Assembly: GCA_025358315.1 (NCBI GenBank)
Contig: JANYKA010000218.1
Location: forward strand, 1 to 36,799
Source of the DNA: Gemmatimonadota bacterium
GTDB taxonomy: Bacteria > Gemmatimonadota > Gemmatimonadetes > Gemmatimonadales > Gemmatimonadaceae
Reading direction: 5' to 3'
Length of the DNA: 36,799 nucleotides
The translations under genes and the position numbers were made by a program. Every line of letters starts with the position of its first letter. The stretch's first letter is position 1. The notes beneath the pieces were generated by a model. The model was given only the letters and a program-made list of their open reading frames with translations, did no database searches and was not told the origin of the DNA. Shown here piece after piece: positions 5,939 to 36,760 of this stretch.

Positions 5939-7137
5939 TTTCCTGCCTTTTCATCGAGTGCTTCCACGCCGGGGAGCGATTTGCCCTCGAGGAACTCTAG
6001 CGATGCGCCGCCACCTGTGGATACGTGGCTCATTTGCTTTGTGAGGCCGGCCTGTTCAACTGCCGCCGCGGAATCGCCGCCACCAACAATCGTTGTGGCA
6101 CCTTTTGCAGTGGCCTGAGCCAGCGCGTGCGCCACGGCGAGCGTACCAGCGTCGAGCGGTGGCGACTCGAAGACACCCATTGGGCCGTTCCAAATAACGG
6201 TCTTCGCGCTGAGTATCGCGCGGGCGAACGAGGCCGCCGAATCGGGTCCGATATCGAGCATCGCTTCGTGGGCCGGTATGGCATCCCGTTTCACGGCATG
6301 CGCCTTGGACGCCTCGGCGATAGACGGCGCAACCATCGCATCGTGCGGTAGCGTCAACCGGTACCCGGCGCGTTCCGTAAGATCGGCGGCCATCTCGACC
6401 CGGTCGGGCTCGATGAGCGAAGTTCCCGTCTCGAACCCCATGGCCTTATAAAATGTGCAGGCCATCGCGCCGCCAATCAGGAGGCCATCGACTTTCGGCA
6501 GTAACGCCTCGATGACGTCGATCTTCCCGGAAATTTTCGAGCCGCCAAGGATGGCGATGAATGGCCGTTTCGGTTTTTCGAGTGCGTCGCCGAGGTAGTC
6601 GAGTTCGCGCTGCATCAACAGTCCGGCCACCGCGGGCTTGAGGAACGCGGCGACGCCGGCGGTCGAACTATGCGCGCGATGCGCGGTGCCGAATGCGTCG
6701 TTGACATAAAAGTCACCGAGACGGGCGAAAGATTTCGAGAGTGCCTCGTCGTTTTTCTCTTCACCCGGGAGGAATCGGGTGTTTTCGAGCACAAGCACTT
6801 CACCATCATGGAGCGCCTTCGTGGCCGCTACCGCCGCATCCGTATTCGACTCCCCCAGGAAATGCACGGGACGCGAAAGCAATTCGCCGAGACGCTTTGC
6901 GGTCGGAGCGAGTGAGTATTTCGACTCTGGTTTCGCGTTGGGACGGCCCAGATGCGAGAGAATAACAATGCGTGCACCAAGTTTAATCAGCGCCTGCAAC
7001 GTCGGCACAGCGGCGCGGATGCGCGTGTCGTCCGTGATATGGTCGCCGTCAAGCGGAACATTAAAATCCACACGCACAAGCGCCCGCTTCCCTTTCACCT
7101 CGGCGGGAGCCAAGTCAAGAACTGTACGTTTACTCAT
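5935..7137 (-). CDS. pgk: Phosphoglycerate kinase
   Basis: Transfers phosphate between 1,3-bisphosphoglycerate and ADP in glycolysis/gluconeogenesis. The 400 residues show the N-terminal substrate motif RVDFNVPLD, the LSHLGRPN loop, the central [14 protein letters not shown] stretch, and the C-terminal nucleotide-binding [11 protein letters not shown] and [13 protein letters not shown] motifs. The frame is open about 31 codons further upstream, but MSKRTVLDL at complement 7135-7137 matches family starts. It follows gap by 35 nt and overlaps tpiA by 4 nt. Confidence 0.97.
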
Positions 7138-7172
7138 TCGTGGCCCGTCTCGCTCGGCAACATTCCCGTCGG

Positions 7173-8180
7173 TTACAGCAACTTGCCGATGTGCAGCGCC
7201 AAATCGACGCAGCGCGACGCATAGCCCCACTCGTTGTCATACCAGCCGGACAAGTTCACCAAAGTGCCATCCACGACGTTGGTGCTCTTGGAGTCAAGAA
7301 TGCAGGAATGGGCATTCCCCACATAGTCAATGGAGACAAGTTCTTCTTCGGTGTACTGCAAAATGTGTTTGAGCGGGCCGTCGGCGGCGGCTTTGAATGC
7401 GGCATTCACCTCGGCAACCGTCGTGCGCTTCTCTACCACGACGGCGAGCTGGGTGAGGGACACATCGGGCGTCGGCACGCGGATGGCGATACCGTCAATC
7501 TTTCCCTTCACTTCCGGAATGACCAATGCCGTGGCTTTCGCCGCGCCGGTGGTCGTCGGAATCATCGAGAGCGCGGCCGCGCGGGCGCGCCGCAAGTCTT
7601 TGTGCGGCATGTCGAGTACACTTTGATCATTCGTGTACGAGTGAATCGTGACCATCGACGCATGGGTGAACCCAAACGCATCGCGAATCACTTTCACCAT
7701 CGGCGCAAGGCAATTCGTCGTGCACGAGGCGTTGGAAATGATGTGGTGCTTGGCCGAGTCGTATTTATTGTCGTTCACGCCGAGCACGACCGTGAGATCT
7801 TCTCCCTTGGCCGGCGCCGAAATAATAACTTTCTTCGCGCCGGCAGTGATGTGCTTGCGCGCATCGTCGGCGTTAGTGAAATGGCCGGTCGATTCGATCA
7901 CGACGTCGACACCGAGCTCTTTCCACGGAAGCAGCGACGGATCTTTGTGCTTAAACACGCGGATGTGGTGCCCATCGATCACGATGGCGTCGTCCAGTGA
8001 CGACACATTGCCGTGATAAGTGCCGTGGATAGAATCGTATTTAAAGAGGTGCGCAAGTGTCCTGGTATCAGTCAGGTCGTTGACGGCCACAAAATCGAGA
8101 GCGGCGCCGGATTCCTTCGCGGCGCGAATCACCTGGCGACCGATGCGGCCGAAGCCGTTAATGCCAACTTTGAGAGTCAT
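7173..8180 (-). CDS. gap: Glyceraldehyde-3-phosphate dehydrogenase, type I
   Basis: Phosphorylating glyceraldehyde-3-phosphate dehydrogenase, 335 residues. The Rossmann motif INGFGRIGR is at residues 7-15. The active-site signature [10 protein letters not shown] places the nucleophile at Cys153, with the base at His180 (TIHSYTNDQ). The Asn34-Asp35 pair after strand 2 suggests preference for NAD over NADP. The open frame extends about 110 codons upstream into comF with no homology, so ATG at complement 8178-8180 is used. It lies upstream of pgk and tpiA in a single direction. Confidence 0.97.
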
Positions 8181-8233
8181 TGTGAGTTCAGGAGAATGAA
8201 CAACGGATATGTATCTGGCGGTCACTGGCGATG

Positions 8234-8983
8234 CTATTTGTCTCCGCTTGCGCGGGCCCTGCCAAACGTTGCATAGCTGATCGTACGGGCGCCGGCATCG
8301 AACAGCGCGGCGGCGCACGCATTCAATGTGGCGCCGGTGGTGATGACATCGTCGATGAGCACGAGGTGACGACCCCGCACCGACTCCGACATGCCGTCGC
8401 AGACATCGAAGGCGCGATGAACGTTCGCGGATCGTTCCCCGGGAGTCAACCGGGTTTGCGTCTCGGTGGCGCGCTTTCGCATCAACAGTTGACTCCAGAC
8501 GGGAATGCCCCACTGCACCGCGAGCGCGTCGGCGATCAGTTGCGCCTGATTAAAACCGCGCTCGCGCTCACGTACCGGCGCCAGCGGTACCGGCACGAGC
8601 GCGGCGCGTTCCGCGAGTACGTCCAGGGGCCACGCAAGCCGTGCGATACGCCCGGCGATCCCCAGCGCCGCATTTTGCCACTCGTGATACTTGAGGGCAT
8701 GCACCACGCCGCTGGAGACTTCGTGCGGCACCCAGCATACAGATCGAACGGCCCGGATGAATGGGGGGAACAGTTCGCAAAAGCGACACCGACGTCCTTG
8801 GGTCGGGTGCCCGCAACGCGCACACTGCGGATGCGGCAGCATCGGCAAGCGAGCCCAGCAGGTTCCGCATATCACCCCATGATCACCCGCACTCATCGCC
8901 CGATCGCATGCCGCGCAGCTGCGCGGCAACATGAGATCCAGAAAAGAAAAAGCGGCCGAGGTTAGCGACCCACGGCCTTCCAC
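8234..8983 (-). CDS. comF: ComF family phosphoribosyltransferase-like protein
   Basis: A ComF/GntX-type protein, implicated in natural competence in several bacteria. Eight cysteines arranged as four CxxC pairs (23/26, 39/42, 54/57, 66/69) make an N-terminal zinc-ribbon region. The C-terminal half is a type I phosphoribosyltransferase fold with the PRPP-binding loop [12 protein letters not shown] near 205-217. The ERGFNQA motif is also present. The chosen GTG start (complement 8981-8983) overlaps aroE by 22 nt. A Met at complement 8930-8932 would be later but would cut into the usual LLDLLLP-type leader. The biochemical role of the family is unsettled. Confidence 0.88.
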
Positions 8984-23193: not shown

Positions 23194-24201
23194 TCACGCC
23201 ACCCGATTTGGCACTTCATGTCCAGCAAAAAACGCCTCGAGATTGTCCACCGCGAGCATCCCCATCGCCGTTCGGGTTTCGTGGGTTGCGCTGCCGATAT
23301 GTGGCAGCAACACCGCGTTGGGGAGCTGCAGTAGCTCGGGTCGCACCGCCGGCTCCCCTTCAAAAACGTCGAGCCCAGCACCGGCAATCGCGCCCGCACG
23401 GAGTGCGGCCACCAGTGCGCTTTCGTCGACTACGTCGCCTCGGGAAGTATTGATCAGGAAAGCTCCCGGACGCATTCGCGACAATCGCTCGCCATTGATT
23501 AAATGTCGCGTGTGATGTGTGGATGGCACGTGCACAGACACAAAATCACTCGACGCCAACAATGCCTCGATGGTCGCACACCGCGTCACTCCGGCGTCAT
23601 TCGCCTGTGGTTGGGTGAGCGAACGGCTCCACGCGAGCACTCGCATGCCGAACCCATCGCGCGCCCGCGCGGCCACCGCCCGCCCAATCCGGCCAAACCC
23701 AACAATGCCGAGCGTTTTCCCCGAAACGCGCGTACCCAGCAGGTGTGTAGGGTGCCAACCGGACCAGTCCCCCGCTCGCAACTCACGCTCGGCTTCACCA
23801 GCACGGCGGGCGGTCGCGAGCATCAATAGCATCGCGAGATCTGCGGTATCGTCCGTGAGTACGCCTGGGGTATTCGTGACGGTGATGCCGAGCTCACGTG
23901 CGACTGTAATATCGATGTTGTCATATCCGACACCGAAGTGGGCGATGAGCTTCGTCCGAACTGCTGAACTGCCGGGCAGCGTGGCAGCGTGCAGGGTGGC
24001 AGCGTGCAGCGGGTCGCCGAGCGTGGTGATCATCGCATCGGATGATGCCATTGCCCGCGATAGCGCGACAGCGTCGAGTGGAACGTCCGTGCTATTCAAT
24101 CGCACGTCGAACATCGCGGTCAATCGCGCCTCGACGGCGGGCGGAAGCCGACGGGTGACCGTGATTACCGAGCGCGCTGTTGGCACTTCGCTGGCTGTCA
24201 C
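23194..24201 (-). CDS. D-2-hydroxyacid dehydrogenase, glyoxylate/hydroxypyruvate reductase-like
   Basis: NAD(P)H-dependent D-2-hydroxyacid dehydrogenase of about 335 residues. The Rossmann motif GFGRIG is at 168-173, the catalytic Arg lies in TSRGDVVDE, and the Glu/His pair is in LDVFEGEP and LPHIGSATHE. HFGVGYDNID is typical of glyoxylate/hydroxypyruvate reductases. Translational coupling to the serine-glyoxylate aminotransferase (GTG start overlapping its stop as GTGA) supports hydroxypyruvate or glyoxylate as substrate. An upstream in-frame ATG at 24237 is possible. Residues 66-75 are a perfect HAATL tandem duplication from a 15-bp DNA repeat. Confidence 0.88.
   Translation of the reverse strand: MTASEVPTARSVITVTRRLPPAVEARLTAMFDVRLNSTDVPLDAVALSRAMASSDAMITTLGDPLHAATLHAATLPGSSAVRTKLIAHFGVGYDNIDITVARELGITVTNTPGVLTDDTADLAMLLMLATARRAGEAERELRAGDWSGWHPTHLLGTRVSGKTLGIVGFGRIGRAVAARARDGFGMRVLAWSRSLTQPQANDAGVTRCATIEALLASSDFVSVHVPSTHHTRHLINGERLSRMRPGAFLINTSRGDVVDESALVAALRAGAIAGAGLDVFEGEPAVRPELLQLPNAVLLPHIGSATHETRTAMGMLAVDNLEAFFAGHEVPNRVA
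23981..24010. repeat. 15-bp tandem duplication inside hydroxyacid dehydrogenase
   Basis: Two adjacent copies of GTGGCAGCGTGCAG plus one variable base (23981-23995 and 23996-24010). The repeat keeps frame and duplicates HAATL in a surface-type loop before the KLIAHFGVGYDN core. Homologues normally have a single short helix here, so this looks like a recent slippage event. Confidence 0.8.
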
Positions 24202-25382
24202 CGGGTTGCGAGCGTTGCCGCACTTTCCTGATACCACGCTTGTGCCGCCGCGACTCCGCTGCCGAGTGTCACCGGAATACCGGCGTCGTTCAATGCCATT
24301 TCCACTCCGGAAAGCGCACCAAGCAACATCAGGTCATTGAGATCGCCGACGTGACCGATGCGGAACACTTTGCCAGCCAGCCTGCCGAGCCCACCGCCCA
24401 ACGCGAGGTTGTACCGGCGGAACGCGATATCGATGACCTTTGCGGCATCCGTCCCGCTCGGGACAACAACCGCCGTAACGGTGCCCGAGTAGGTCTTGGG
24501 ATCGTTCGCACAGATGTCTAATCCCCACGCGCGGACGGCACGGCGCACACCTTCGGCCAGCCGATGATGGCGTGCAATGACGTTGACCATGCCTTCTTCG
24601 AGCAGCATGTCGAGCGCTTCTCTTAATCCGAACAAATGGGCGAGCGCTGGCGTGTAAGGGAACGACCCCAAGGCGTTCTGTTTCGCCTGATCGCGCAAAT
24701 CAAAGAACACCCGAGGGCACTTTGCTGAATCGGCCATCGCCGATCCTTTCTCGCTGACACAAAGCAATCCGAGCCCGGCCGGCATCATGAATCCCTTTTG
24801 CGATCCGGCGATGGCGAAATCGACCTTCCATTCGTCGAAGCGAAAATCGAGACTGGCGATTGAACTCACGCCGTCGACGTGCAGCAGCGCCGGATGGTTG
24901 GCCGCATCCATCGCCGCCCGGATTGCCCCGATATCGCTGGTGACACCCGTGGCCGTCTCGTTGTGCACAATCAACACGGCTTTGATTTCATGTTGAGTGT
25001 CGGCAGTGAGCAGTTGACCGATGCGGCCTGGCGGCGCGGCTTCGCCCCATTCGAGGTCAATCACATCGACCCGCAAGCCGAGGCGTTCGGCGCAGTCAAT
25101 GAACAGATGACTGAACTGCCCGAACCGACAGGCGAGGACGCGGTCACCTGGCGAAAGCGAGTTGACCAGCGAGGCTTCCCACATTGCGGTGCCGGTCGCC
25201 GGGAAAATAAATGTTTGTCCTTTCGCTGTGCCGTAGATTTTTTTCAAATCTGCGAATAGTCCACGAGGCAGCTCCGGAAACGCGGAAGACCGATGGTCTT
25301 CTTGCGCGCGGTGCATGGCGCGGAGAACGCGATCGGGGACGTTGGTGGGACCGGGAACGAAGAGAAAATGGCGACCGGGCAT
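24198..25382 (-). CDS. Serine-glyoxylate/alanine-glyoxylate-type aminotransferase
   Basis: PLP-dependent class V aminotransferase, 394 residues, in the family of serine-glyoxylate and alanine-glyoxylate aminotransferases. It begins MPGRHFLFVPGPTNVPDRVL, has PATGTAMWEASLVNS at 61-75, the cofactor Asp in LLHVDGVSSIA (Asp170) and the PLP lysine Lys196 in AGSQKGFMMPAG. These match the serine-glyoxylate enzymes of serine-cycle bacteria more closely than cysteine desulfurases, but substrate specificity is inferred. The following coupled reductase would convert hydroxypyruvate to glycerate. ATG at complement 25380-25382; the leader contains the CTCCCAC-rich repeat described below. Confidence 0.9.
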   Translation of the reverse strand: MPGRHFLFVPGPTNVPDRVLRAMHRAQEDHRSSAFPELPRGLFADLKKIYGTAKGQTFIFPATGTAMWEASLVNSLSPGDRVLACRFGQFSHLFIDCAERLGLRVDVIDLEWGEAAPPGRIGQLLTADTQHEIKAVLIVHNETATGVTSDIGAIRAAMDAANHPALLHVDGVSSIASLDFRFDEWKVDFAIAGSQKGFMMPAGLGLLCVSEKGSAMADSAKCPRVFFDLRDQAKQNALGSFPYTPALAHLFGLREALDMLLEEGMVNVIARHHRLAEGVRRAVRAWGLDICANDPKTYSGTVTAVVVPSGTDAAKVIDIAFRRYNLALGGGLGRLAGKVFRIGHVGDLNDLMLLGALSGVEMALNDAGIPVTLGSGVAAAQAWYQESAATLATR

Positions 25383-27183: not shown

Positions 27184-28410
27184 TTACTTCGAGCGACGGT
27201 GGGCCGTGATGAGCACCGCAATTTCGTCAGTGCGCGGATTGATGAAATCCAGTCGCACGCGCCCGTCGCCGAAGTCGCTTATCGTTGCCGGAATGGAACT
27301 GTTCGTGAGCACCCATCCCGCCGGGAGCACAACCGTATTAGCCGGACGTCCGAACGTTCGATCCCAGAAGAGTTCATTCCCGATCAGCCTGTACCGTGCA
27401 GAGTCTGTATAGGTCTCCGACATTCTCAGGCGCACCGACCGGCCGGTCCGAACGGCGGTGAATCGAAAGACGACGGCTTCCGTCATCGGCGTCACACCCG
27501 GTTCTTCGGGGGCGGCCGCAGTAATATCAGCGCCCTTGAGCAACTTCCACGTGAGTGCTTCGCCCGTATCGAGATTTCGCGCCGACGGCTTCGACGCCGT
27601 ACTTCCGGTGCGCACGATGTTCACATACGAGCCCGTACCCGCCCGCGACTCGGTGTAATCGTGATACAGGTCGAACGCATGCGTTTCCGGCTGTTGCAGC
27701 AAGTACACGATCTTGCGATTCTGGTGTGCCCGTTCGTCGAGCCGCGACGTCACGTCGCGCGGCAGAACGAGCGGCGCGCTACCCGTGACGGCCGGAACAG
27801 CCGGAACGGCCTTGAGCACGAGTGCGGCATCGCCTGACGTGTTGTTCCAGAACGCCACGCCAATGCGTCCGTCGGCTTCGCGCAGAATCTGCGCCGGATA
27901 ATTACAGGAGATCAGTTCGTAATTGGCCGGCAGCACCACGGCGTTGCGTCGAATGCCCAGTGTCCGACTGAAAATGATCGTGTCGCCGGCGGAGTAATAA
28001 CTCTTCGCGTCTTCGTATGTCTTGTCAATCAACAATCGCGATTCCCCGCCATTCGCCGGCACGGGTCGCGTCAGCGTAACCCGGATGTACTTCTGTGACG
28101 AGTCACGTCCTCGCACCCCCATCGCCGATGCAACATCCTGCCCCACGATGTCGAACAGCAACGGTTGCCCGGTCGCACGGTCGCGAACGGACTCATTGCT
28201 GGCAATGCTGCCCGATCGAATGGGATTGAAAAAATGCGTCGCACCCGCGGCTACGGCCGTGACTTCGTAGAGAATCCGGAACTTTGCCGAACCCGGAGCG
28301 AGCAGTTCATACCTCGTATAGGCATCTCCGGCGGCGGCTGTTCCTGACTGGGCCGCCAACACGCGAACGGCAACGGCTATTCCCAGTACCGCGTAGGATA
28401 ATCGGGGCAT
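27184..28410 (-). CDS. Secreted protein with two internal repeats, unknown function
   Basis: Not recognised as any characterised family. The 408 residues start with a probable signal peptide (hydrophobic 5-20, cleavage near AAQS). The mature part is two related halves, about 31-199 and 232-404. Each contains a polar beta-rich segment with a ratio-like RxGS motif (IRSGSIAS, VRTGSTAS), an RL-x-x-x-TY-x-D-(A/S) stretch, and a closing block RT-(L/F)-G followed by VVLPA, then a G-D/A-GR turn (FSRTLGIRRNAVVLPANYEL and WDRTFGRPANTVVLPAGWVL). This suggests an ancient duplication, perhaps of a beta-sandwich domain. ATG at complement 28408-28410 has GGAGA 5-6 nt upstream. It is transcribed divergently from the formate dehydrogenase cluster. 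Confidence 0.75.
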   Translation of the reverse strand: MPRLSYAVLGIAVAVRVLAAQSGTAAAGDAYTRYELLAPGSAKFRILYEVTAVAAGATHFFNPIRSGSIASNESVRDRATGQPLLFDIVGQDVASAMGVRGRDSSQKYIRVTLTRPVPANGGESRLLIDKTYEDAKSYYSAGDTIIFSRTLGIRRNAVVLPANYELISCNYPAQILREADGRIGVAFWNNTSGDAALVLKAVPAVPAVTGSAPLVLPRDVTSRLDERAHQNRKIVYLLQQPETHAFDLYHDYTESRAGTGSYVNIVRTGSTASKPSARNLDTGEALTWKLLKGADITAAAPEEPGVTPMTEAVVFRFTAVRTGRSVRLRMSETYTDSARYRLIGNELFWDRTFGRPANTVVLPAGWVLTNSSIPATISDFGDGRVRLDFINPRTDEIAVLITAHRRSK

Positions 28411-28531
28411 TGGTTCTCCAATGTGAACGAAGGGTCGCGGGAATCATACGGCCCTTGCCTCGCGCGCGCACCAGACGCCAACTTTTTCGTGTCCCGTGAC
28501 ATCCAGCTTTAACATAAAGGAGACGCGTTAT
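28411..28531. promoter_or_regulatory. Divergent intergenic region upstream of the formate dehydrogenase cluster
   Basis: 121 nt separate the secreted protein (minus) from fdhA (plus), so both promoters must be here or overlap the genes. Upstream of fdhA a TAACAT at about 28509-28514 could be a -10, but the -35 is poor. No convincing sigma54 pattern was found. AAAGGAG (28516-28522) is a strong ribosome-binding site 9 nt before the fdhA ATG. Confidence 0.45.
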
Positions 28532-30487
28532 ATGCGGAACACCCCTCGGCGTCAATCGTCCGCTCCGCGGTCATACGTGCGTCTCACTGAGCCGCTGGTT
28601 CGTGAAAACGGCGTGCTTCGGCCGGCGACATGGGATGAAGCGCTCGACCGCGCGGCAGCCGGGTTCCGCCGAAACATCGACGCGCGGGGTCCGAACGCCC
28701 TCGGCACCTTCAGCTGCTCGAAGTCGACCAACGAAGTCAACTTCCTCGCGCAGAAGCTGAGTCGCGTGGCCTTTGGCACCAATAACATCGACAGTTGTAA
28801 TCGAACGTGACACGCACCTAGCGTCGTCGGTCTGGCGACGGTGTTCGGAGCGGGAGGCGGTACGAACTCCTACAAAGAGGTCGAAGAGACGGACGTCGTT
28901 TTCCTTTGGGGGTCGAACGCGCGCGACGCGCATCCGATCTGGTTTCATCATTTACTGAAAGGGATTCGCAACGGTACGCGGCTCTACGTGATGGACCCGC
29001 GTCGCACCGCGTCGGCGCAGTGGGCTGATGTGTGGCTTGGACTGCGCGTCGGGAGCGACATCGCGCTATCAAATGCCATGGCGCGCGAAATTATTCGCGC
29101 CGGCCTTGCCCACACCGATTTCATCGCGCGATCCACGGAAGGGTTCGATGCATACCGTGCGTCCGTCGAGTCGTGCACGCTCGAATGGGCGGAGCCGATC
29201 ACCGGCATTCCCGCCGACGTCATTCGCGAAGCCGCCCATACGTTTGCGAAGGCCGACCGCGCGATGGTCTGCTGGACGCTTGGGATTACGGAGCATCACA
29301 ACGCCGTCGATAACGTGCTGGCGCTGATAAATCTGTGTTTGTTAACCGGACACGTTGGTCGTTGGGGCTGTGGCGCCAATCCGTTGCGCGGTCAAAATAA
29401 TGTGCAGGGCGGTGGTGACATGGGCGCCATCCCGAACAAACTGCCGGGATTTCAGGACATCACCGACAGCGAAGCACGGACGCGCATCGGCAACCTGTGG
29501 AATACGACCATTCAGCCTACCTACGGTCGCAATCTGACAGAAATGCTTCACGCCATGGAGCACGGTGAAATCACGTCACTGTACGTCATTGGCGAGAACC
29601 CCGCACAGTCCGATGCCGACGGGTCGAAAGTTGAACGGGCCCTCCGATCCCTTGACCATATGGTCGTGCAGGAGATTTTCCTCACCAAGACTGCGCAACT
29701 GGCCCACGTCGTGCTTCCGGCAACGGCAAGCTGGTGTGAAAGTGAAGGCACGGTCACGAATAGCGAGCGTCGGGTGCAACGGGTGCGCAAAGCGAAGGAG
29801 CCGCCGGCAGGCGCCCGCGACGAGCTTTGGATCATCGCCGAGCTTGCCAAACGGCTCGGATATGATTTCGGGGCGCCGACTGCGGAATCCACTTGGAACG
29901 AGTTCCGCGCGGTTGCACCGGAGTTTGCTGGTGGAATGAGTTATGCACGCCTCGAATCACTGAGCGGCATCCAATGGCCGTGCGCGACGGAATCGGATCC
30001 GGGGGCCGTATTTCTCCACGCACGATTGTGGGACGAACCGCGCGGAGGACCAGCGGCACCGTTCAGCGTCGTCCTCAACGTACCCCCATTCGAAGAACGC
30101 GACGCCGAATATCCTATTCTACTGACCACAGGTCGCCGGCTTGAGTCGTACAACACCGGCGTCCAAACCGGCGGCTACGATTCCCCGCTCCATCGCGGCG
30201 AGTCGCTCGATATTTCACCGGACGATGCCACGCGACTTGGCATCAGCGACGGCGATCTTGTCCGTGTGTCATCGCGGCGGGGGAGTGTCATTGCGCCAGC
30301 ACACATCGATCCGGCATTGAGAACGAACCTCGTGTTCATGACGCTCCATTTTCCCGACGACGTTGCCACAAATTTACTGACGATCGACGAGTCTGATCCG
30401 AAATCCGGCACGGCAGAGTTCAAGGCGTGTGCCGTACGCATTGAACGGGTCCGCGGACGTGAACCCGCCACTGCTGGTACGCGCTGA
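28532..30487 (+). CDS. fdhA: Formate dehydrogenase catalytic subunit, selenoprotein (UGA 28808-28810 = Sec93)
   Basis: Mo/W-bis-molybdopterin formate dehydrogenase catalytic subunit, 651 residues if the in-frame UGA at 28808-28810 is read as selenocysteine. The UGA falls at the metal-ligand codon: upstream reads NNIDSCNRT, downstream HAPSVVGLATVFGAGGG, where cysteine enzymes have NRTCH. Catalytic partners His94 and Arg286 (RGQNNVQG) are intact, the frame is open after the UGA for 558 codons, and a SECIS-like hairpin follows immediately. The C-terminal dinucleotide-binding domain (TTGRRLESYNTGVQT onward) is complete. Unlike typical NAD-linked alpha subunits it starts after the Fe-S region, at RLTEPLVRENGVLRPATWDEA; the missing part is encoded at 32379. 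ATG 28532 follows AAAGGAG; an in-frame GTG at 28496 is less likely. Its stop overlaps the next ATG by 1 nt. Confidence 0.92.
28808..28844 (+). promoter_or_regulatory. Bacterial SECIS element with the Sec UGA codon
   Basis: Directly after the UGA, an RNA hairpin can form. The apical stem 28823-28828 pairs with 28834-28839 (six pairs including one U-G), closing the pentaloop GGUCU at 28829-28833. A lower stem 28814-28818 pairs with 28840-28844, with a one-sided bulge. GGU CUG occupies the same eighth and ninth codons from UGA as in E. coli fdhF, whose SelB-binding loop has the same GGUCU. A U is also found at position 17 counted from the UGA, as in E. coli, although here it could pair. SelA, SelB and tRNA-Sec are not in this window. 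Confidence 0.85.
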
Positions 30488-32382
30488 TGGACATTCGCCT
30501 TCCTGATGCGGTAGCGTCCTCAGCAGAACGTGAGGCGGTGGATGCGTTCCTTGGCACGCCGCGCACCGCGTGGGATGGTGGTCCCCGTGGCAGCGAACGC
30601 GACGCACATACAGCGACCGGCGGCCAGTCCGTTCGGGACCAACGCCACTTGCTTGTGCCGGCGTTGCAAGCCCTGCAGTCGCGCGTCGGCTGGATCAGCG
30701 AAGGCGGCATTGGCTATGTCTGTACGCGACTCGGCGTTCCGCCAGCCGACGCGTGGGGTGTCGCGACATTCTATGCGATGCTGGCCACATCCCCGCGGCC
30801 GCGGCGTGTATTGCATGTGTGCGACGACATTGCGTGCCGTGGCCGTGGTGCTCTGGCGATCTGCAGTGACTTAGAAAAGCGCGCAGGTCCACCGATCGCG
30901 CACGCGCCGAGCGGAAATCATACCGCGCTCGATTCCGATCGCGCCGCATGGATGCATTCGCCTTGTCTCGGCTTGTGCGATCAGGCGCCAGCAGCATTGG
31001 TGACGGAAGCCGGCAGGGCGCCCGACGAGCGACTGCTCGGCCATATGACAGCCGATACCGCGTGGGCAATTGTTGCCGGCGGTCCGCTACCGACCGATGC
31101 GCTGGAGCAGATCACAGTGCCGGACGCTGGTAATGCGTCGTTGGTGCTGCTCAAGCGGGTCGGCTCCGTGGATCCGACGAGCCTTACTGCATACCGGGGC
31201 GCTGGCGGCTACGTAGCGCTGCCGCGCGCTATCGCCATGGGAGCCGAAGCGGTGATTCGCGAAGTCACCGATGCAAAACTCGTCGGTCGCGGTGGCGCTG
31301 CGTTTCCGACCGGCCGGAAATGGGACGCCGTAAGACGTCAGGCTGTCACACCGCATTATCTCGTATGCAACGCCGATGAATCGGAACCTGGAACATTCAA
31401 AGACCGCGCGCTGCTGGCCGGCGATCCGTTCGCGATCGTCGAGGCGATGACCATTGCCGGGATCGCGACAGGTTCGGAGCGCGGCTATTTATATATTCGC
31501 GCCGAGTATCCGCTGGCGACAATACGAATGACTCACGCGATTAACGAAGCACGGGCGGCGGGATTGCTCGGGTCAAACATTTTGTCGAGTGGTGCAACAT
31601 TTGACATCGAGATTCGACGCGGCGCCGGCGCCTATATCTGCGGCGAAGAAACCGCATTGTTCGAATCGATTGAAGGAAAGCGCGGCGAGCCACGCAGCAA
31701 ACCGCCATTTCCCGTGAATGCCGGTGTGTTCGGCAAACCGACGGTCGTGAACAATGTCGAGACCTTGGCGAATGTGCTCCCGATTATTCTTGACGGCGGC
31801 GCCGTGTTTGCCACGACCGGCACGTTGCAATCCACCGGGACACGACTCTTTTGCCTGAGCGGCGCCGTACAGCGACCGGGTGTGTATGAAGTTTCCTCCG
31901 GCACGTCATTGCGGACGCTGATCACACGTGCCGGCGGCGTGACTGCTGGCCGTACGCTGTCGGCGATTCTGCTCGGCGGTGCGGCTGGAACGTTTTTGCG
32001 TCCGGATGAGATCGATCTTCCTTTGTCACTCGAAGCGGCCCGTGCGGCGGGCACAACACTCGGCTCCGGTGTCGTGATGCTCTTTGATGACACAGCGGAT
32101 CTTCGCGACATCGTGATGCGAATCGCCGGGTTCTTCAGGGACGAATCGTGTGGCCAGTGCGTTCCGTGCCGGGTGGGGACGGTGCGGCAAGAAGAAGCGT
32201 TACACCGTATCAGCGCCGGTCAAACACGCGACGGTGTGCGCGGTGAGCTCGCGTTGCTTGATGAAATTGGCCTCGCGATGCGCGACGCGTCGATATGCGG
32301 GCTCGGTCAGACGGCGTACGCCGCCGTGGAATCAGCTATCAAGCGGTTGAGACTTTACGACAGCGCCGGAGTCGGAGTATGA
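30487..32382 (+). CDS. Formate dehydrogenase diaphorase subunit, NuoE-NuoF fusion
   Basis: Single 631-residue protein fusing a NuoE/FdsG-like [2Fe-2S] thioredoxin-fold domain to a NuoF/FdsB-like NAD(H)- and FMN-binding subunit. The N-terminal part has the cluster ligands Cys112, Cys117, Cys160 and Cys164 (CDDIAC, CLGLC). The NuoF part has GRGGAAFPTG (267-276, FMN/NADH site), GAGAYICGEETAL (379-391) and [4Fe-4S] ligands Cys555, 558, 561 and 604 (ESCGQCVPC, SICGLGQ). It passes electrons between the formate dehydrogenase Fe-S chain and NAD. Such fusions are known, for example in Methylobacterium Fdh1B. It overlaps fdhA by 1 nt and the Fe-S gene by 4 nt, strongly implying one operon. Confidence 0.95.
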   Translation: MDIRLPDAVASSAEREAVDAFLGTPRTAWDGGPRGSERDAHTATGGQSVRDQRHLLVPALQALQSRVGWISEGGIGYVCTRLGVPPADAWGVATFYAMLATSPRPRRVLHVCDDIACRGRGALAICSDLEKRAGPPIAHAPSGNHTALDSDRAAWMHSPCLGLCDQAPAALVTEAGRAPDERLLGHMTADTAWAIVAGGPLPTDALEQITVPDAGNASLVLLKRVGSVDPTSLTAYRGAGGYVALPRAIAMGAEAVIREVTDAKLVGRGGAAFPTGRKWDAVRRQAVTPHYLVCNADESEPGTFKDRALLAGDPFAIVEAMTIAGIATGSERGYLYIRAEYPLATIRMTHAINEARAAGLLGSNILSSGATFDIEIRRGAGAYICGEETALFESIEGKRGEPRSKPPFPVNAGVFGKPTVVNNVETLANVLPIILDGGAVFATTGTLQSTGTRLFCLSGAVQRPGVYEVSSGTSLRTLITRAGGVTAGRTLSAILLGGAAGTFLRPDEIDLPLSLEAARAAGTTLGSGVVMLFDDTADLRDIVMRIAGFFRDESCGQCVPCRVGTVRQEEALHRISAGQTRDGVRGELALLDEIGLAMRDASICGLGQTAYAAVESAIKRLRLYDSAGVGV

Positions 32383-33374
32383 CAGAAACCGCTGCCATTC
32401 CATTCGTGCAACTCCGCCGCCCGCGGACGGTACCGAAGGCAAATATCGAACTGACCATTGATGAGCAACTTGTAAGCGTGCCAGAGGGCACGACTATACT
32501 AAGTGCATGCGCGAAATTAGGCATCGAGATTCCGACGCTCTGTTATCTCGAGACGTTACGGCCGGTCAATGTCTGCCGATTGTGCGTGGTCGAGGTCGAA
32601 GGTGCGCGCGTGTTAGCGCCCGGGTGTTCTCGCACCGTTGAGGCGGGGATGGTGGTGCATAGTACATCGGACCGGGTGCGGCATTCGCGTAAACTGGTGC
32701 TCGAGTTGCTCGCCTCGTCCGTCGACCTGTCAACGACACCCGGGATGAATGCCCTTCTTGAGGAGTACGACTGCAAGCCCGAACGTTACGGGCCCCCTGC
32801 ACCACCGGCGCCCGCCGGCCAGCGCGACAATGCCATTCCCGGTCATCACGCGGCGCCTGACGTCCGCTATGCGGCAACCGTCGCGCAGCCAGTGAAGGTC
32901 GACAACGATTTGTACATTCGCGATTACGCAAAATGCGTACTGTGCTATAAGTGCGTCGAAGCGTGCGGCCCGGATCACCAGAACACTTTCGCTATTGCAG
33001 TGGCCGGCCGCGGATTTGACGCGCGGATTTCGACCGAGTTCGCCGTACAGCTCCCCGACTCCGCCTGCGTGTATTGCGGCAACTGCATTGCCGTTTGCCC
33101 GACGGGCGCACTGATGGCAAAAACCGAATTCGACATGCGCGGCGACGGCAGTTGGGATGAATCGAAGCAGACGGTCACCGATACGATTTGCCCGTACTGC
33201 GGCGTCGGATGCACGCTATCGTTGCATGTGCAGAACAATCTGATCGTGACCGCGACATCGCCGATCGACAATGGAGTGACGCTCGGCAATCTGTGCATCA
33301 AAGGGCGATTCGGATGGCAGTTCGTCCAGAATCACGACACGGGCGGCGGCCCTGGAGCCGATGGCCGCGGCTGA
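32379..33374 (+). CDS. Formate dehydrogenase Fe-S subunit (detached alpha-subunit N-terminus)
   Basis: 331 residues equivalent to the N-terminal Fe-S region of FdsA-type alpha subunits, here a separate protein. In order: [2Fe-2S] plant-ferredoxin/NuoG-like domain (Cys55, 66, 69, 83); 2x[4Fe-4S] ferredoxin domain (Cys186, 189, 192, 196 and Cys230, 233, 236, 240); and the [4Fe-4S] domain that normally opens the molybdopterin subunit (CPYCGVGC, Cys271, 274, 278 and Cys306, then KGRFG). It stops just after GWQFVQ, the point where FdhA (28532) resumes. The His/Cys-rich cluster usually found between the first two domains is not visible; only Cys132 occurs there. ATG 32379 overlaps the previous stop (ATGA); GGAG lies 7 nt upstream. 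An in-frame upstream start at 32295 is rejected. Confidence 0.92.
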   Translation: MTETAAIPFVQLRRPRTVPKANIELTIDEQLVSVPEGTTILSACAKLGIEIPTLCYLETLRPVNVCRLCVVEVEGARVLAPGCSRTVEAGMVVHSTSDRVRHSRKLVLELLASSVDLSTTPGMNALLEEYDCKPERYGPPAPPAPAGQRDNAIPGHHAAPDVRYAATVAQPVKVDNDLYIRDYAKCVLCYKCVEACGPDHQNTFAIAVAGRGFDARISTEFAVQLPDSACVYCGNCIAVCPTGALMAKTEFDMRGDGSWDESKQTVTDTICPYCGVGCTLSLHVQNNLIVTATSPIDNGVTLGNLCIKGRFGWQFVQNHDTGGGPGADGRG

Positions 33375-34215
33375 CGGCCCATCGTCCGCGCTTGGCGCGG
33401 CTCCGGGGCTCGGCCAGAGCGCCCCGGTCAGCACGCGCGGCTTCGTCAGAATAGCCGGCACGCAGACATCACACGAGAGCACGCAAGTCGCCGAAGAGGT
33501 GCCGGTCGCATTTGTGTATTCCGGACGGCCACATGCGGTGATGATGTGCACGCCGACCGATCTCGAAGATCTGGCGATAGGCTTTTCGCTGACGGAAGAG
33601 ATTGTCGGCGCAAGAGAAGATATCGGCACCATTAGTGTCACGCGTCATAGCCGCGGCATCGAGCTCAGCGTCGAGATTCCGCCAGCCGCCGCAGCGACGC
33701 TTGCCACGCGCGCCCGTGCGCTGTCCGGACGGACGGGTTGCGGCCTGTGCGGCGTGGAGGCAATTGATGACGCCGTTCGCACGCCGCATTTCGTGCAGTC
33801 GGAACTCGTTGTCCCGGCCACGGCGCTTTGGAGCGCCGGAACCGCACTCGCGGCGCGCCAGCATTACAATAATGAGACACACAGCGTACACGCTGCGGCG
33901 TGGGCGACACCTGATGGGGAATTGCGCGTCGTGCGTGAAGACGTTGGCCGCCATAACGCGCTCGACAAAGTACTCGGTGCACTCGCGCGCTCGGGCACCG
34001 ACCCACGGGTCGGCTTTATCGTCATTACCAGCCGCGCAAGTTTTGAACTCGTTCAAAAAATTGCCGTTGCCGGTGTGCCTTTGCTCGCTGCTGTATCCCG
34101 TCCGACTGGCCTCGCGATTCGATTGGCGGAACACGCGGGGATTACGCTTGTCGGCCTGTTGCGCGGCGAGAGCGCCAATACCTACACACACGCCAACCGT
34201 ATTTCTCTCACTTAA
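33361..34215 (+). CDS. fdhD: Sulfurtransferase FdhD
   Basis: Formate dehydrogenase accessory sulfurtransferase that moves sulfur from a cysteine desulfurase to the bis-molybdopterin cofactor before insertion. The 284 residues include the catalytic CxxC loop GRTGCGLCG (Cys127, Cys130), the N-terminal EEVPVAFVYSG and TPTDLEDLAIGF motifs, and the C-terminal VREDVGRHNALDKVLG and TSRASFELVQKIA motifs. The first 25 or so residues look unstructured. ATG 33361 gives a 14-nt overlap with the Fe-S subunit gene and has GGAG only 3 nt away; a later start is possible. Its place in the operon supports the formate dehydrogenase being active. Confidence 0.95.
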   Translation: MAAADGPSSALGAAPGLGQSAPVSTRGFVRIAGTQTSHESTQVAEEVPVAFVYSGRPHAVMMCTPTDLEDLAIGFSLTEEIVGAREDIGTISVTRHSRGIELSVEIPPAAAATLATRARALSGRTGCGLCGVEAIDDAVRTPHFVQSELVVPATALWSAGTALAARQHYNNETHSVHAAAWATPDGELRVVREDVGRHNALDKVLGALARSGTDPRVGFIVITSRASFELVQKIAVAGVPLLAAVSRPTGLAIRLAEHAGITLVGLLRGESANTYTHANRISLT

Positions 34216-34226
34216 AATCGAGCACC

Positions 34227-35906
34227 ATGTCGCCCAAGGTTCCGTCGGACATTGAGATCGCCCAAAGCGCAAAACCGCGGCATATCACCGCCGTAGCCGC
34301 AGACCTCGGCCTAAGCGCCGACGACATCGACCATTACGGTAAATACAAGGCGAAGCTGCCACTTGAGCTGGCCTCGCGCCCGCCTAAGGGAAAACTTGTC
34401 CTTGTCACGGCGATCAGTCCGACGCCGGCCGGCGAAGGCAAAAGCACCGTCAGCGTAGGACTCGCCCAGGCCCTGCGTCGTATTGGCACGAACGCCGTGC
34501 TCTGCATTCGCGAGCCAAGTCTCGGGCCGGTATTCGGTGTGAAAGGCGGCGCTGCCGGCGGTGGCTATTCACAAGTGATTCCGATGGAGGATATCAATCT
34601 CCACTTCACCGGAGATTTCCATGCAATCTCAAGTGCACATGCGTTGCTGTCGGCGCTGCTCGACAATCATTTACAGCAGGGCAACGCGCTGAACCTCGAC
34701 TCGCGGCGCGTGACATGGCCACGGACGATCGACATGAACGATCGCGCCCTGCGCAATGCGACGATCGGACTGGGCGGCGTTGGCGATGGCATTGTGCGCG
34801 AGGAGCATTGGGTGATCATTCCGGCCAGCGAAGTGATGGCGATTGTTTCGCTCGCCACCAGCCGCGCCGATCTTGAAGAACGGCTCGGCCGAATTATCGT
34901 TGGAGCGACGGCTGGCAAAGACAAGAAGCCCGTGCGTGCCCGCGATCTCAAAGCGTCCGGGGCGATGGCGATGCTGCTCAAGGATGCGATTCGCCCGAAT
35001 CTTGTGCAGACACTCGAGGGCGGCCCGGCGCTGGTGCATGCCGGCCCATTTGGAAATATCGCGCACGGATGCAACAGCATTCTTGCGACGAAGTCGGCGC
35101 TTGCACTTGGCGACGTGGTCATCACAGAAGCCGGGTTCGGCAGTGATCTGGGCGCCGAGAAGTTCTTTGATATCAAATGCCGCTTTGGCGGATTGAATCC
35201 CGAGGCGGCAGTGCTCGTCGCCACGATTCGTTCATTGAAAATGCAAGGCGGCGCTGACAAGAAAGAGCTGACCAAAGAAAACGCCGCGGCGCTTGAGAAG
35301 GGGCTTCCCCACCTTGAGCATCACTTACGGAACGTGCAACAGTTCGGCTTGCCCGTTGTCGTGGCACTGAACCGAATCACCAGCGATACCGACGCAGAGT
35401 TGAAGATTGTGATGGATTGCGCTGCGAGACTTGGCGTGAAGGTGGTGCTGACAGAGGTGTGGGCGCGCGGCGGCGCGGGCGGCGAGGAACTGGCGAAAGA
35501 GGTGCTCGCACTGCTCGCATCAAAAACGGCGAAGTACGCACCCCTCTACGCGACGGAGTTGCCGATCCGCACAAAAATCGAAACGATCGTAAAACGGGTA
35601 TATGGCGGCGACGGCGTGGACTACGCGCCTGCAGCCGAACGGTCGATGGACTACCTCGAGTCGATTGGACTCGGAAACACGCCCGTGTGCATCGCTAAGA
35701 CCCAGTACTCGCTGACCGACGATCCAACGCGTCTGTGCAAACCCACGGGTTTCCGGATCACGATCAACGAGGTGTACGGGTCAGCAGGCGCAGGGTTTGT
35801 GGTTGCGAAGGCCGGCGACATCATGACGATGCCGGGATTACCCAAAGTACCAGCTGCGGAAGGCATGTCGATTGATGCTGATGGCGAAATCTCCGGACTT
35901 TCGTGA
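34227..35906 (+). CDS. fhs: Formate-tetrahydrofolate ligase
   Basis: ATP-dependent formation of 10-formyl-tetrahydrofolate from formate. The 559-residue length is typical. The P-loop-like TPAGEGKST is at 66-74, followed by REPSLGPVFGVKGGAAGGG and the folate/substrate region NLHFTGDFHAI. The C-terminal GAGFVVAKAGDIMTMPGLPK motif is intact. It starts 11 nt after fdhD. Together with the formate dehydrogenase it links CO2/formate to the tetrahydrofolate pool, in either the oxidative or assimilative direction. Confidence 0.97.
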   Translation: MSPKVPSDIEIAQSAKPRHITAVAADLGLSADDIDHYGKYKAKLPLELASRPPKGKLVLVTAISPTPAGEGKSTVSVGLAQALRRIGTNAVLCIREPSLGPVFGVKGGAAGGGYSQVIPMEDINLHFTGDFHAISSAHALLSALLDNHLQQGNALNLDSRRVTWPRTIDMNDRALRNATIGLGGVGDGIVREEHWVIIPASEVMAIVSLATSRADLEERLGRIIVGATAGKDKKPVRARDLKASGAMAMLLKDAIRPNLVQTLEGGPALVHAGPFGNIAHGCNSILATKSALALGDVVITEAGFGSDLGAEKFFDIKCRFGGLNPEAAVLVATIRSLKMQGGADKKELTKENAAALEKGLPHLEHHLRNVQQFGLPVVVALNRITSDTDAELKIVMDCAARLGVKVVLTEVWARGGAGGEELAKEVLALLASKTAKYAPLYATELPIRTKIETIVKRVYGGDGVDYAPAAERSMDYLESIGLGNTPVCIAKTQYSLTDDPTRLCKPTGFRITINEVYGSAGAGFVVAKAGDIMTMPGLPKVPAAEGMSIDADGEISGLS

Positions 35907-36088: not shown

Positions 36089-36760
36089 ATGGATATCTAT
36101 AGTTTCAGTCTTGTCCTCGGTGGCGCCGGCCTCGGCGTGATGGCCATCGGCGGATTCGGACGACATGCGGGCCAAACACATGGCGGAGGCTCGCATGGCG
36201 CGGGTTCGCATCACGGTGTTGCCGTGCAGTCCGGACACGCAGCCGGTCACGCTGCGGCAACCGGTCACGCCACCGCTGGCCACGCGCACCAAACCCACGG
36301 CGCTGTCTCGACGAATGCCAGATCATTGACGGACACCTTCTGGTCACTCGCATCACCAATGCTGCTTTTTTCGGTACTGCTTGGCTTTGGCGTGACCGGT
36401 TTGCTCTTCCATCGCATTCTCTCCGGCGTGATCCTGGCTGGCGTGGCGGTTGCCGGAGCCATCCTATTCGAACGATTGATCATTTCGCAGCTGTGGAAGC
36501 TGTTGCTTCGCTTCGCGTCAACGCCGGCGCTCGCCATTGAGAGTGTGCTCGAAGACGAGGCGCGGGCCGTCAGTGGATTCGATGCGAAAGGCTGCGGACT
36601 TATTTCCGTCGAATTCGATGGCCAGGTGCGACAACTCCTGGGAACCCTCACACCCTCCGATTTGTCCTCCGGCATCCGTGTGCGCGCCGGTGATCGACTG
36701 CGCGTCGAAGCCGTGGACGGCGCGCGCAACCGCTGTACCGTTTCGTACATCGGATCGTAG
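36089..36760 (+). CDS. NfeD-like membrane protein with His-rich loop
   Basis: 223-residue membrane protein of uncertain function. An N-terminal hydrophobic segment (4-23) is followed by a Gly/Ala/His-rich stretch (25-72) with 11 histidines. Two further membrane segments lie at about 88-107 and 111-129, and a soluble beta-rich domain at 160-222 (GLISVEFDGQVRQL, VRAGDRLRVEAVDG) resembles the OB-fold of NfeD-like proteins. The His-rich loop could bind metal such as nickel, zinc or copper, but this is only suggested by composition. ATG 36089 follows GGAG (36072-36075) at a rather long distance. It is separated from fhs by 182 nt and probably has its own promoter. Confidence 0.7.
   Translation: MDIYSFSLVLGGAGLGVMAIGGFGRHAGQTHGGGSHGAGSHHGVAVQSGHAAGHAAATGHATAGHAHQTHGAVSTNARSLTDTFWSLASPMLLFSVLLGFGVTGLLFHRILSGVILAGVAVAGAILFERLIISQLWKLLLRFASTPALAIESVLEDEARAVSGFDAKGCGLISVEFDGQVRQLLGTLTPSDLSSGIRVRAGDRLRVEAVDGARNRCTVSYIGS

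Follow-up and report, generated by a model that had tools for sequence, protein, structure and literature searches.

When an in-frame TGA occupies the codon for the metal ligand of a formate dehydrogenase (FDH), is it a stop or a selenocysteine codon, and is the enzyme around it complete? This question is raised by a locus of a Gemmatimonadota bacterium, located in a stretch of 36,799 nucleotides that was analysed as a whole and is called the window below. Translation of the forward frame at 28532-30487 gave 651 residues with a single internal stop, the TGA at 28808-28810 (codon 93), which is flanked by NNIDSCNRT upstream and HAPSVVGL downstream, and is followed by 558 open codons up to the terminal TGA at 30485-30487. 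The first-pass annotation had placed the internal TGA at the codon of the Mo/W ligand, with 558 open codons behind it, and retranslation agrees. It had also expected naive ORF calling to yield a 92-residue fragment and a 5'-truncated enzyme, and essentially these pieces were obtained. The features of the locus are collected in Table 1.

Table 1. Features of the formate dehydrogenase locus (window coordinates)
Feature	Coordinates	Strand	Evidence
Shine-Dalgarno-like AAAGGAG, 5' of the fdhA-cat ATG	28516..28522	+	read from sequence
fdhA-cat: Mo/W-bisPGD catalytic subunit, 651 residues, predicted Sec93, without the usual N-terminal [4Fe-4S] domain	28532..30487	+	TIGR01591, alignments, model
In-frame UGA, predicted to be read as selenocysteine (Mo/W ligand), then conserved His94	28808..28810	+	conservation; Cys codons in homologues
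SECIS-type hairpin CGUCGUC-GGUCU-GGCGACG, 11 nt past the UGA; loop 28829-28833	28822..28840	+	comparative sequence evidence
NuoE-NuoF (FdsG-FdsB) fusion: NAD(H)-binding diaphorase subunit, FMN and FeS domains	30487..32382	+	profile matches, alignment
FeS subunit: NuoG/HoxU-like ferredoxin arm and C-terminal [4Fe-4S] domain, C-x2-C-x3-C...C-x-K	32379..33374	+	profile matches, alignments
fdhD: sulfurtransferase, FDH cofactor maturation	33361..34215	+	TIGR00129, 193 bits (cut-off 141)
fhs: formate--tetrahydrofolate ligase	34227..35906	+	PRK13505, 835 bits (cut-off 652)

In the profile search, TIGR01591 outscored every other family by a wide margin for fdhA-cat, with 657 bits over profile positions 53-672. 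This is below the cut-off of the family (666.25 bits), because profile positions 1-52, which correspond to the [4Fe-4S] domain, sit in the gene at 32379. PF00384 and PF01568 were matched as well, and the two sides of the TGA form one continuous FDH catalytic domain. An alignment to Cys-type FdsA and Sec-type FdhF had been suggested beforehand; fdhA-cat aligns over its whole length to both (6tg9 and 1aa6, respectively), as it does to HDCR FdhF (7qv7). The remaining active-site residues had been described as intact. This holds for the Mo/W-binding part, where Sec93-His94 and Arg286-Gly-Gln are invariant over 33 aligned sequences, but not for the N-terminal [4Fe-4S] domain, which lies outside the ORF.

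Orthologues at least 67% identical were found in 22 further genomes among the 60 relatives searched, the nearest (95-96%) being that of G012. Exactly one TGA was present, at the same place, in every orthologue covering codon 93 (67-96% identical), and the 96% identical fragment of the near-identical species G012 also has one TGA. We conclude that the TGA is due neither to chance nor to a sequencing error. In actinomycete homologues, Cys codons (TGC or TGT) replace it. The equivalent residue of FdhF/FdsA-type enzymes is a Cys or Sec that binds Mo or W. A general reassignment of UGA in this organism is contradicted by fdhA-cat itself, whose terminator is again a TGA, one that overlaps the start codon (ATG) of the following gene.

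The region downstream of the UGA can form a short hairpin. Counting the U of UGA as base 1, it covers bases 15-33 and has G23 and U24 in its loop; the SECIS of E. coli fdhF presumably has GU in the loop in the same register, and a GGUCU loop at the same distance from its UGA. Over 21 sequences, the 7-bp stem was 96.6% paired, compared to 14-87% when the 3' arm was slid, and compensating changes (C-G to G-C at the base of the stem) were observed in loci L081 and L086. Codon choice follows the same pattern: codons 98-102 (GTC GTC GGT CTG GCG) are 95-100% fixed, which is the strongest synonymous conservation of the gene. In a test on 373 conserved columns, in which the commonest codon was used 68% on average, the best window of codon fixation in fdhA-cat was codons 92-103. 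TGA loci were also compared with TGC/TGT loci in named genomes. At TGA loci, 6.6 of the 7 stem pairs were kept in split enzymes (those whose [4Fe-4S] domain is encoded apart, see below) and 6.3 of 7 in unsplit ones, and GU was found at positions 23-24 in 23/23 and 34/36 loci, respectively. At TGC/TGT loci the hairpin is lost, with 4.0 (split) and 3.9 (unsplit) pairs out of 7, and GU in 1/10 and 4/9 loci. This comparison is the strongest control for the putative recoding signal. The folding energy of the hairpin as a single sequence was not unusual (z -0.94), and the case therefore rests on comparative evidence. An Rfam search of the window and of the UGA region matched no family. A longer minimum-energy register (15 pairs) was rejected, as it was 89.2% paired with covariation barely above that of shuffles, and the 7-bp SECIS register fits better. 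The hairpin is retained as a candidate SelB-binding element of SECIS type.

Part of the selenocysteine machinery was found in the source MAG (G000; 2.8 Mb, 283 contigs, 82% complete, 5.6% contaminated). It contains selA (532 bits for a cut-off of 268) and selB (322.6 bits for a cut-off of 242, profile positions 1-577 of 581), the latter adjoining, by our reading, a RecO-like gene. For tRNA-Sec and selD, no match exceeded the cut-off in this 82% complete assembly, nor was the corresponding region of G012 matched in it. In G012, the closest relative, the two genes are neighbours (contig C216, 8372-8464 and 8601-9524). The simplest reading is that in G000 both lie in sequence that the assembly lacks. 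Overall, tRNA-Sec was present in 46 and selD in 49 of the 61 relatives, including most of the genus, and ARAGORN found a tRNA-Sec with anticodon UCA in all 11 relatives tested. By a hand tally of the 23 genomes carrying the TGA gene, 21 have selA, 20 tRNA-Sec and 22 selD, the gaps being confined to the incomplete MAGs G000 and G017, and to G038. None of the ten relatives devoid of selA, tRNA-Sec and selD has the TGA gene. As for G038, which belongs to the same order (95% complete, 240 contigs), no selA or tRNA-Sec match exceeded the cut-off; this genome has a TGA-containing split FDH (contig C98) and a selD over the cut-off, and the two missing genes are probably assembly gaps. Many of the selD genes of the order (L058-L066 and those of other relatives) have one in-frame TGA, and those of the window's own genus have none; SelD is probably itself a selenoprotein in the relatives concerned.

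If the TGA were a real stop, the locus would be a pseudogene, or would produce a 92-residue fragment and a truncated enzyme starting at GTG 28841. The outcome of naive ORF calling is in line with this, as is the failure to find tRNA-Sec and selD in the 82% complete source MAG. We nevertheless consider it very improbable: the same TGA is found in 67-78% identical and otherwise intact genes across the genus, the family and the order, and protein-level constraint persists on both sides of it; a product started at the GTG would lack the catalytic His, and a frozen hairpin would serve no purpose without recoding. The open frame does not by itself identify the residue inserted, so that UGA might be read as something other than Sec, either Trp or a near-cognate Cys or Trp. 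There is hardly any likelihood of this, given that the terminator is also UGA, which is not reassigned, that the position is that of the Mo/W ligand, Cys or Sec in known FDHs and encoded by Cys codons in homologues, and that selA and selB are present in the MAG. Sequence comparison supports the reading of UGA 93 as a selenocysteine codon in the FDH active site. The earlier proposal that the catalytic subunit is a selenoprotein is thus sustained, by the conserved UGA, the SECIS-type hairpin, the frozen synonymous sites and the loss of the hairpin in Cys homologues.

The separation of the catalytic chain from its FeS domain had been overlooked in the first-pass annotation. The operon has a permuted order: catalytic gene, NuoEF fusion, FeS gene, fdhD and fhs. 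The [4Fe-4S] domain (TIGR01591 positions 1-52, PF04879) is outside fdhA-cat, at the C-terminus of the protein encoded two genes downstream (32379-33374), and its four cluster Cys and its Lys are invariant in an alignment of 27 FeS proteins. Residues 308-936 of Rhodobacter capsulatus FdsA (6tg9_A) align to the catalytic ORF, and residues 23-307 to the FeS ORF. As judged from these alignments, the FdsA-equivalent chain is cut exactly in two at 307/308. Compared with an Fds-type enzyme, the operon does include a NuoE/NuoF diaphorase gene, in fused form (30487-32382), but the NuoG-like arm and the catalytic domain do not form one FdsA chain, the NuoEF gene separating the two genes. In R. capsulatus, the cluster able to take the electron from Mo is A1, which is the only FdsA cluster outside the N-terminal 250 residues (PMC7171172). 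We equate A1 with the cluster of the split-off [4Fe-4S] domain, and the first electron hop would therefore cross two polypeptides.

The distribution of the split form was surveyed on 80 loci from named genomes. Homologues at least 56% identical were all split, where upstream sequence was present in the locus, and the FeS domain was fused in every homologue of at most 53% identity. In a catalytic-domain tree of 85 sequences, the 39 split forms grouped as a single clade (SH-aLRT 98) lying within the Sec enzymes; its immediate neighbours are short Bacillus-type Sec enzymes of the fused form. A single change from Sec to Cys occurred within the clade, in ten actinomycetes including Streptomyces. 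The FeS-arm tree gave the same single division between split and fused forms, with a support of 100. Members of the split clade are labelled as Gemmatimonadota, Acidobacteriota, Actinomycetota, Planctomycetota and Bacillota, besides one deltaproteobacterial and one Chthonomonas MAG; taxon labels of MAGs can be wrong, and membership is safer for the isolate genomes, which are from Ilumatobacter, Actinomycetospora, Streptomyces, Nonomuraea, Amycolatopsis and Nocardiopsis. Among cultured members, Ilumatobacter nonamiensis YM16-303 and Actinomycetospora lemnae DW7H6 have the Sec type, and S. parvulus is one of the Streptomyces with the Cys type. An unsplit Sec FDH, 44% identical, with one TGA and a fused FeS arm, was encountered in the same order (L086 of genome G059, 6036-8786, reverse strand), with fdhD and NuoEF genes upstream. 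Both architectures therefore exist in the order.

Solved FDH alpha chains include the [4Fe-4S] domain, and it might be argued that the catalytic gene encodes a usual, self-contained chain whose FeS domain is missing only through an artefact of annotation or assembly. Such an explanation is barely tenable. No [4Fe-4S] Cys motif was found upstream in clade members having upstream sequence, while every outgroup has one, and the one motif that was flagged, in L108, is at a contig end. Moreover, the domain is found, with its four Cys and Lys invariant, in the third gene of those loci that are long enough, and the split form is already present in independent assemblies. A further alternative concerns the origin only: the FeS domain of a short FdhF-like chain may have disappeared and been replaced by one taken from a separate FdsA-derived gene, without fission of a long FdsA. 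This origin is conceivable, if rather doubtful. It would fit the nearest unsplit sequences in the tree, namely short FdhF-like proteins of Bacillus that have no NuoG-like arm; against it, the FeS arms of the split clade form a single group relative to the arms of long FdsA chains, and the join matches FdsA 307/308 exactly. Domain borrowing would leave the preferred account of the enzyme's working unaffected. On the joint evidence, we regard it as very likely that the locus encodes a cytoplasmic, NAD-dependent Mo/W FDH of the Fds type, with a Sec ligand, and with its FdsA equivalent made as two proteins.

Several known systems can be compared with this operon. FdsABG(CD) of R. capsulatus, an NAD-dependent FDH (PDB 6TG9; PMC7171172), has the same total domains, namely a NuoG-like arm, a proximal [4Fe-4S], the bis-PGD domains, a NuoE/NuoF diaphorase and an FdhD-type maturation protein. 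Its FdsA is one chain with Cys386, whereas the window has two chains at either end of the core operon, Sec, and a NuoE-NuoF fusion. Methylorubrum extorquens FDH1 (PDB 7VW6) is the best structural match of the catalytic chain, and its 572 aa beta subunit aligns to the NuoEF fusion; its alpha subunit (989 aa) is unsplit, however, and combines FeS arm and catalytic domain in one chain. E. coli FDH-H, or FdhF (PDB 1AA6), resembles the window enzyme in its Sec encoded by UGA with a SECIS hairpin and in the conserved His and Arg, but includes an N-terminal [4Fe-4S] domain in its chain and functions with no diaphorase. The short Sec FDHs of Bacillus, Cytobacillus and Mesobacillus (L117, L120 and L123) are the nearest unsplit relatives in the tree. 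They share the UGA and hairpin, and differ in having the [4Fe-4S] domain fused in front, with no NuoG-like arm in the chain.

An AlphaFold model of the catalytic chain was good (pLDDT 87, pTM 0.88; TM 0.91 to FDHs), and it is therefore plausible that this chain adopts the fold of an FDH core in the absence of the FeS domain. For the FeS chain, the model was poor (pLDDT 59) and was not used. We propose that SelB-bound Sec-tRNA would decode UGA 93, helped by the hairpin 11 nt downstream, and that the FdsA-type polypeptide would be replaced by a pair of proteins encoded at opposite ends of the core operon. The catalytic chain would bear Sec93, His94, Arg286 and the bis-PGD folds, and the FeS chain the proximal [4Fe-4S] domain and the NuoG-like arm; both would presumably assemble in trans with the fused NuoEF subunit. 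Electrons would then pass from formate to Mo/W-Sec, to the [4Fe-4S] on the other chain, to the FeS arm, to FMN and finally to NAD+, both the reaction direction and the nature of the metal being inferred. An NAD-dependent FDH function, in formate oxidation or CO2 reduction, is suggested because genes for a NuoEF partner, FdhD and formate--THF ligase are present. It is plausible that the enzyme would have a role in formate turnover linked to the metabolism of one-carbon units, serine and glyoxylate.

Other genes of the window surround the operon. Divergent from it is a gene for a 408-aa protein (27184-28410, reverse strand) with no Pfam or NCBIfam match, which has a counterpart at the same place in several relatives (about 63-65% identity). 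Past fhs, a 223-aa open frame (36089-36760, forward strand), also without a Pfam or NCBIfam match, may not be a gene. The region 23194-25382, on the reverse strand and thus opposite to fhs and the FDH genes, which are close by, holds the gene of an aminotransferase of BhcA/serine-glyoxylate-like type (567 bits, under the cut-off of that family) beside a glyoxylate/hydroxypyruvate-reductase-like gene.

Selenocysteine in FDHs is textbook knowledge, and FDH is the commonest bacterial selenoprotein, so that the Sec part of our results extends a known trait to Gemmatimonadota. Its use was not known beforehand to be well described in this lineage; no description was found in the searchable literature (outside subscription papers and supplements), and 'gemmatimonad' was absent from the text of the selenium surveys searched. 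Likewise, neither a split FDH nor the Streptomyces FDH was described in the literature searched, which excludes most subscription journals. We think it probable that this is an undescribed Fds-type lineage, whose Mo/W-Sec catalytic chain would be a different polypeptide from that carrying the [4Fe-4S] domain which receives the first electron.

The split chain matters more than the Sec. All solved FDHs that we know of carry the [4Fe-4S] domain as part of the catalytic chain; the multi-phylum lineage described here separates the two cleanly at one domain border. Automatic annotation can break such operons twice, at the UGA and at the missing domain. A natural two-piece FDH would be useful for the study of cofactor insertion and for the engineering of CO2 reduction. 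If the split is as proposed, the catalytic chain might mature alone and dock in trans, and might even switch between electron-transfer partners.
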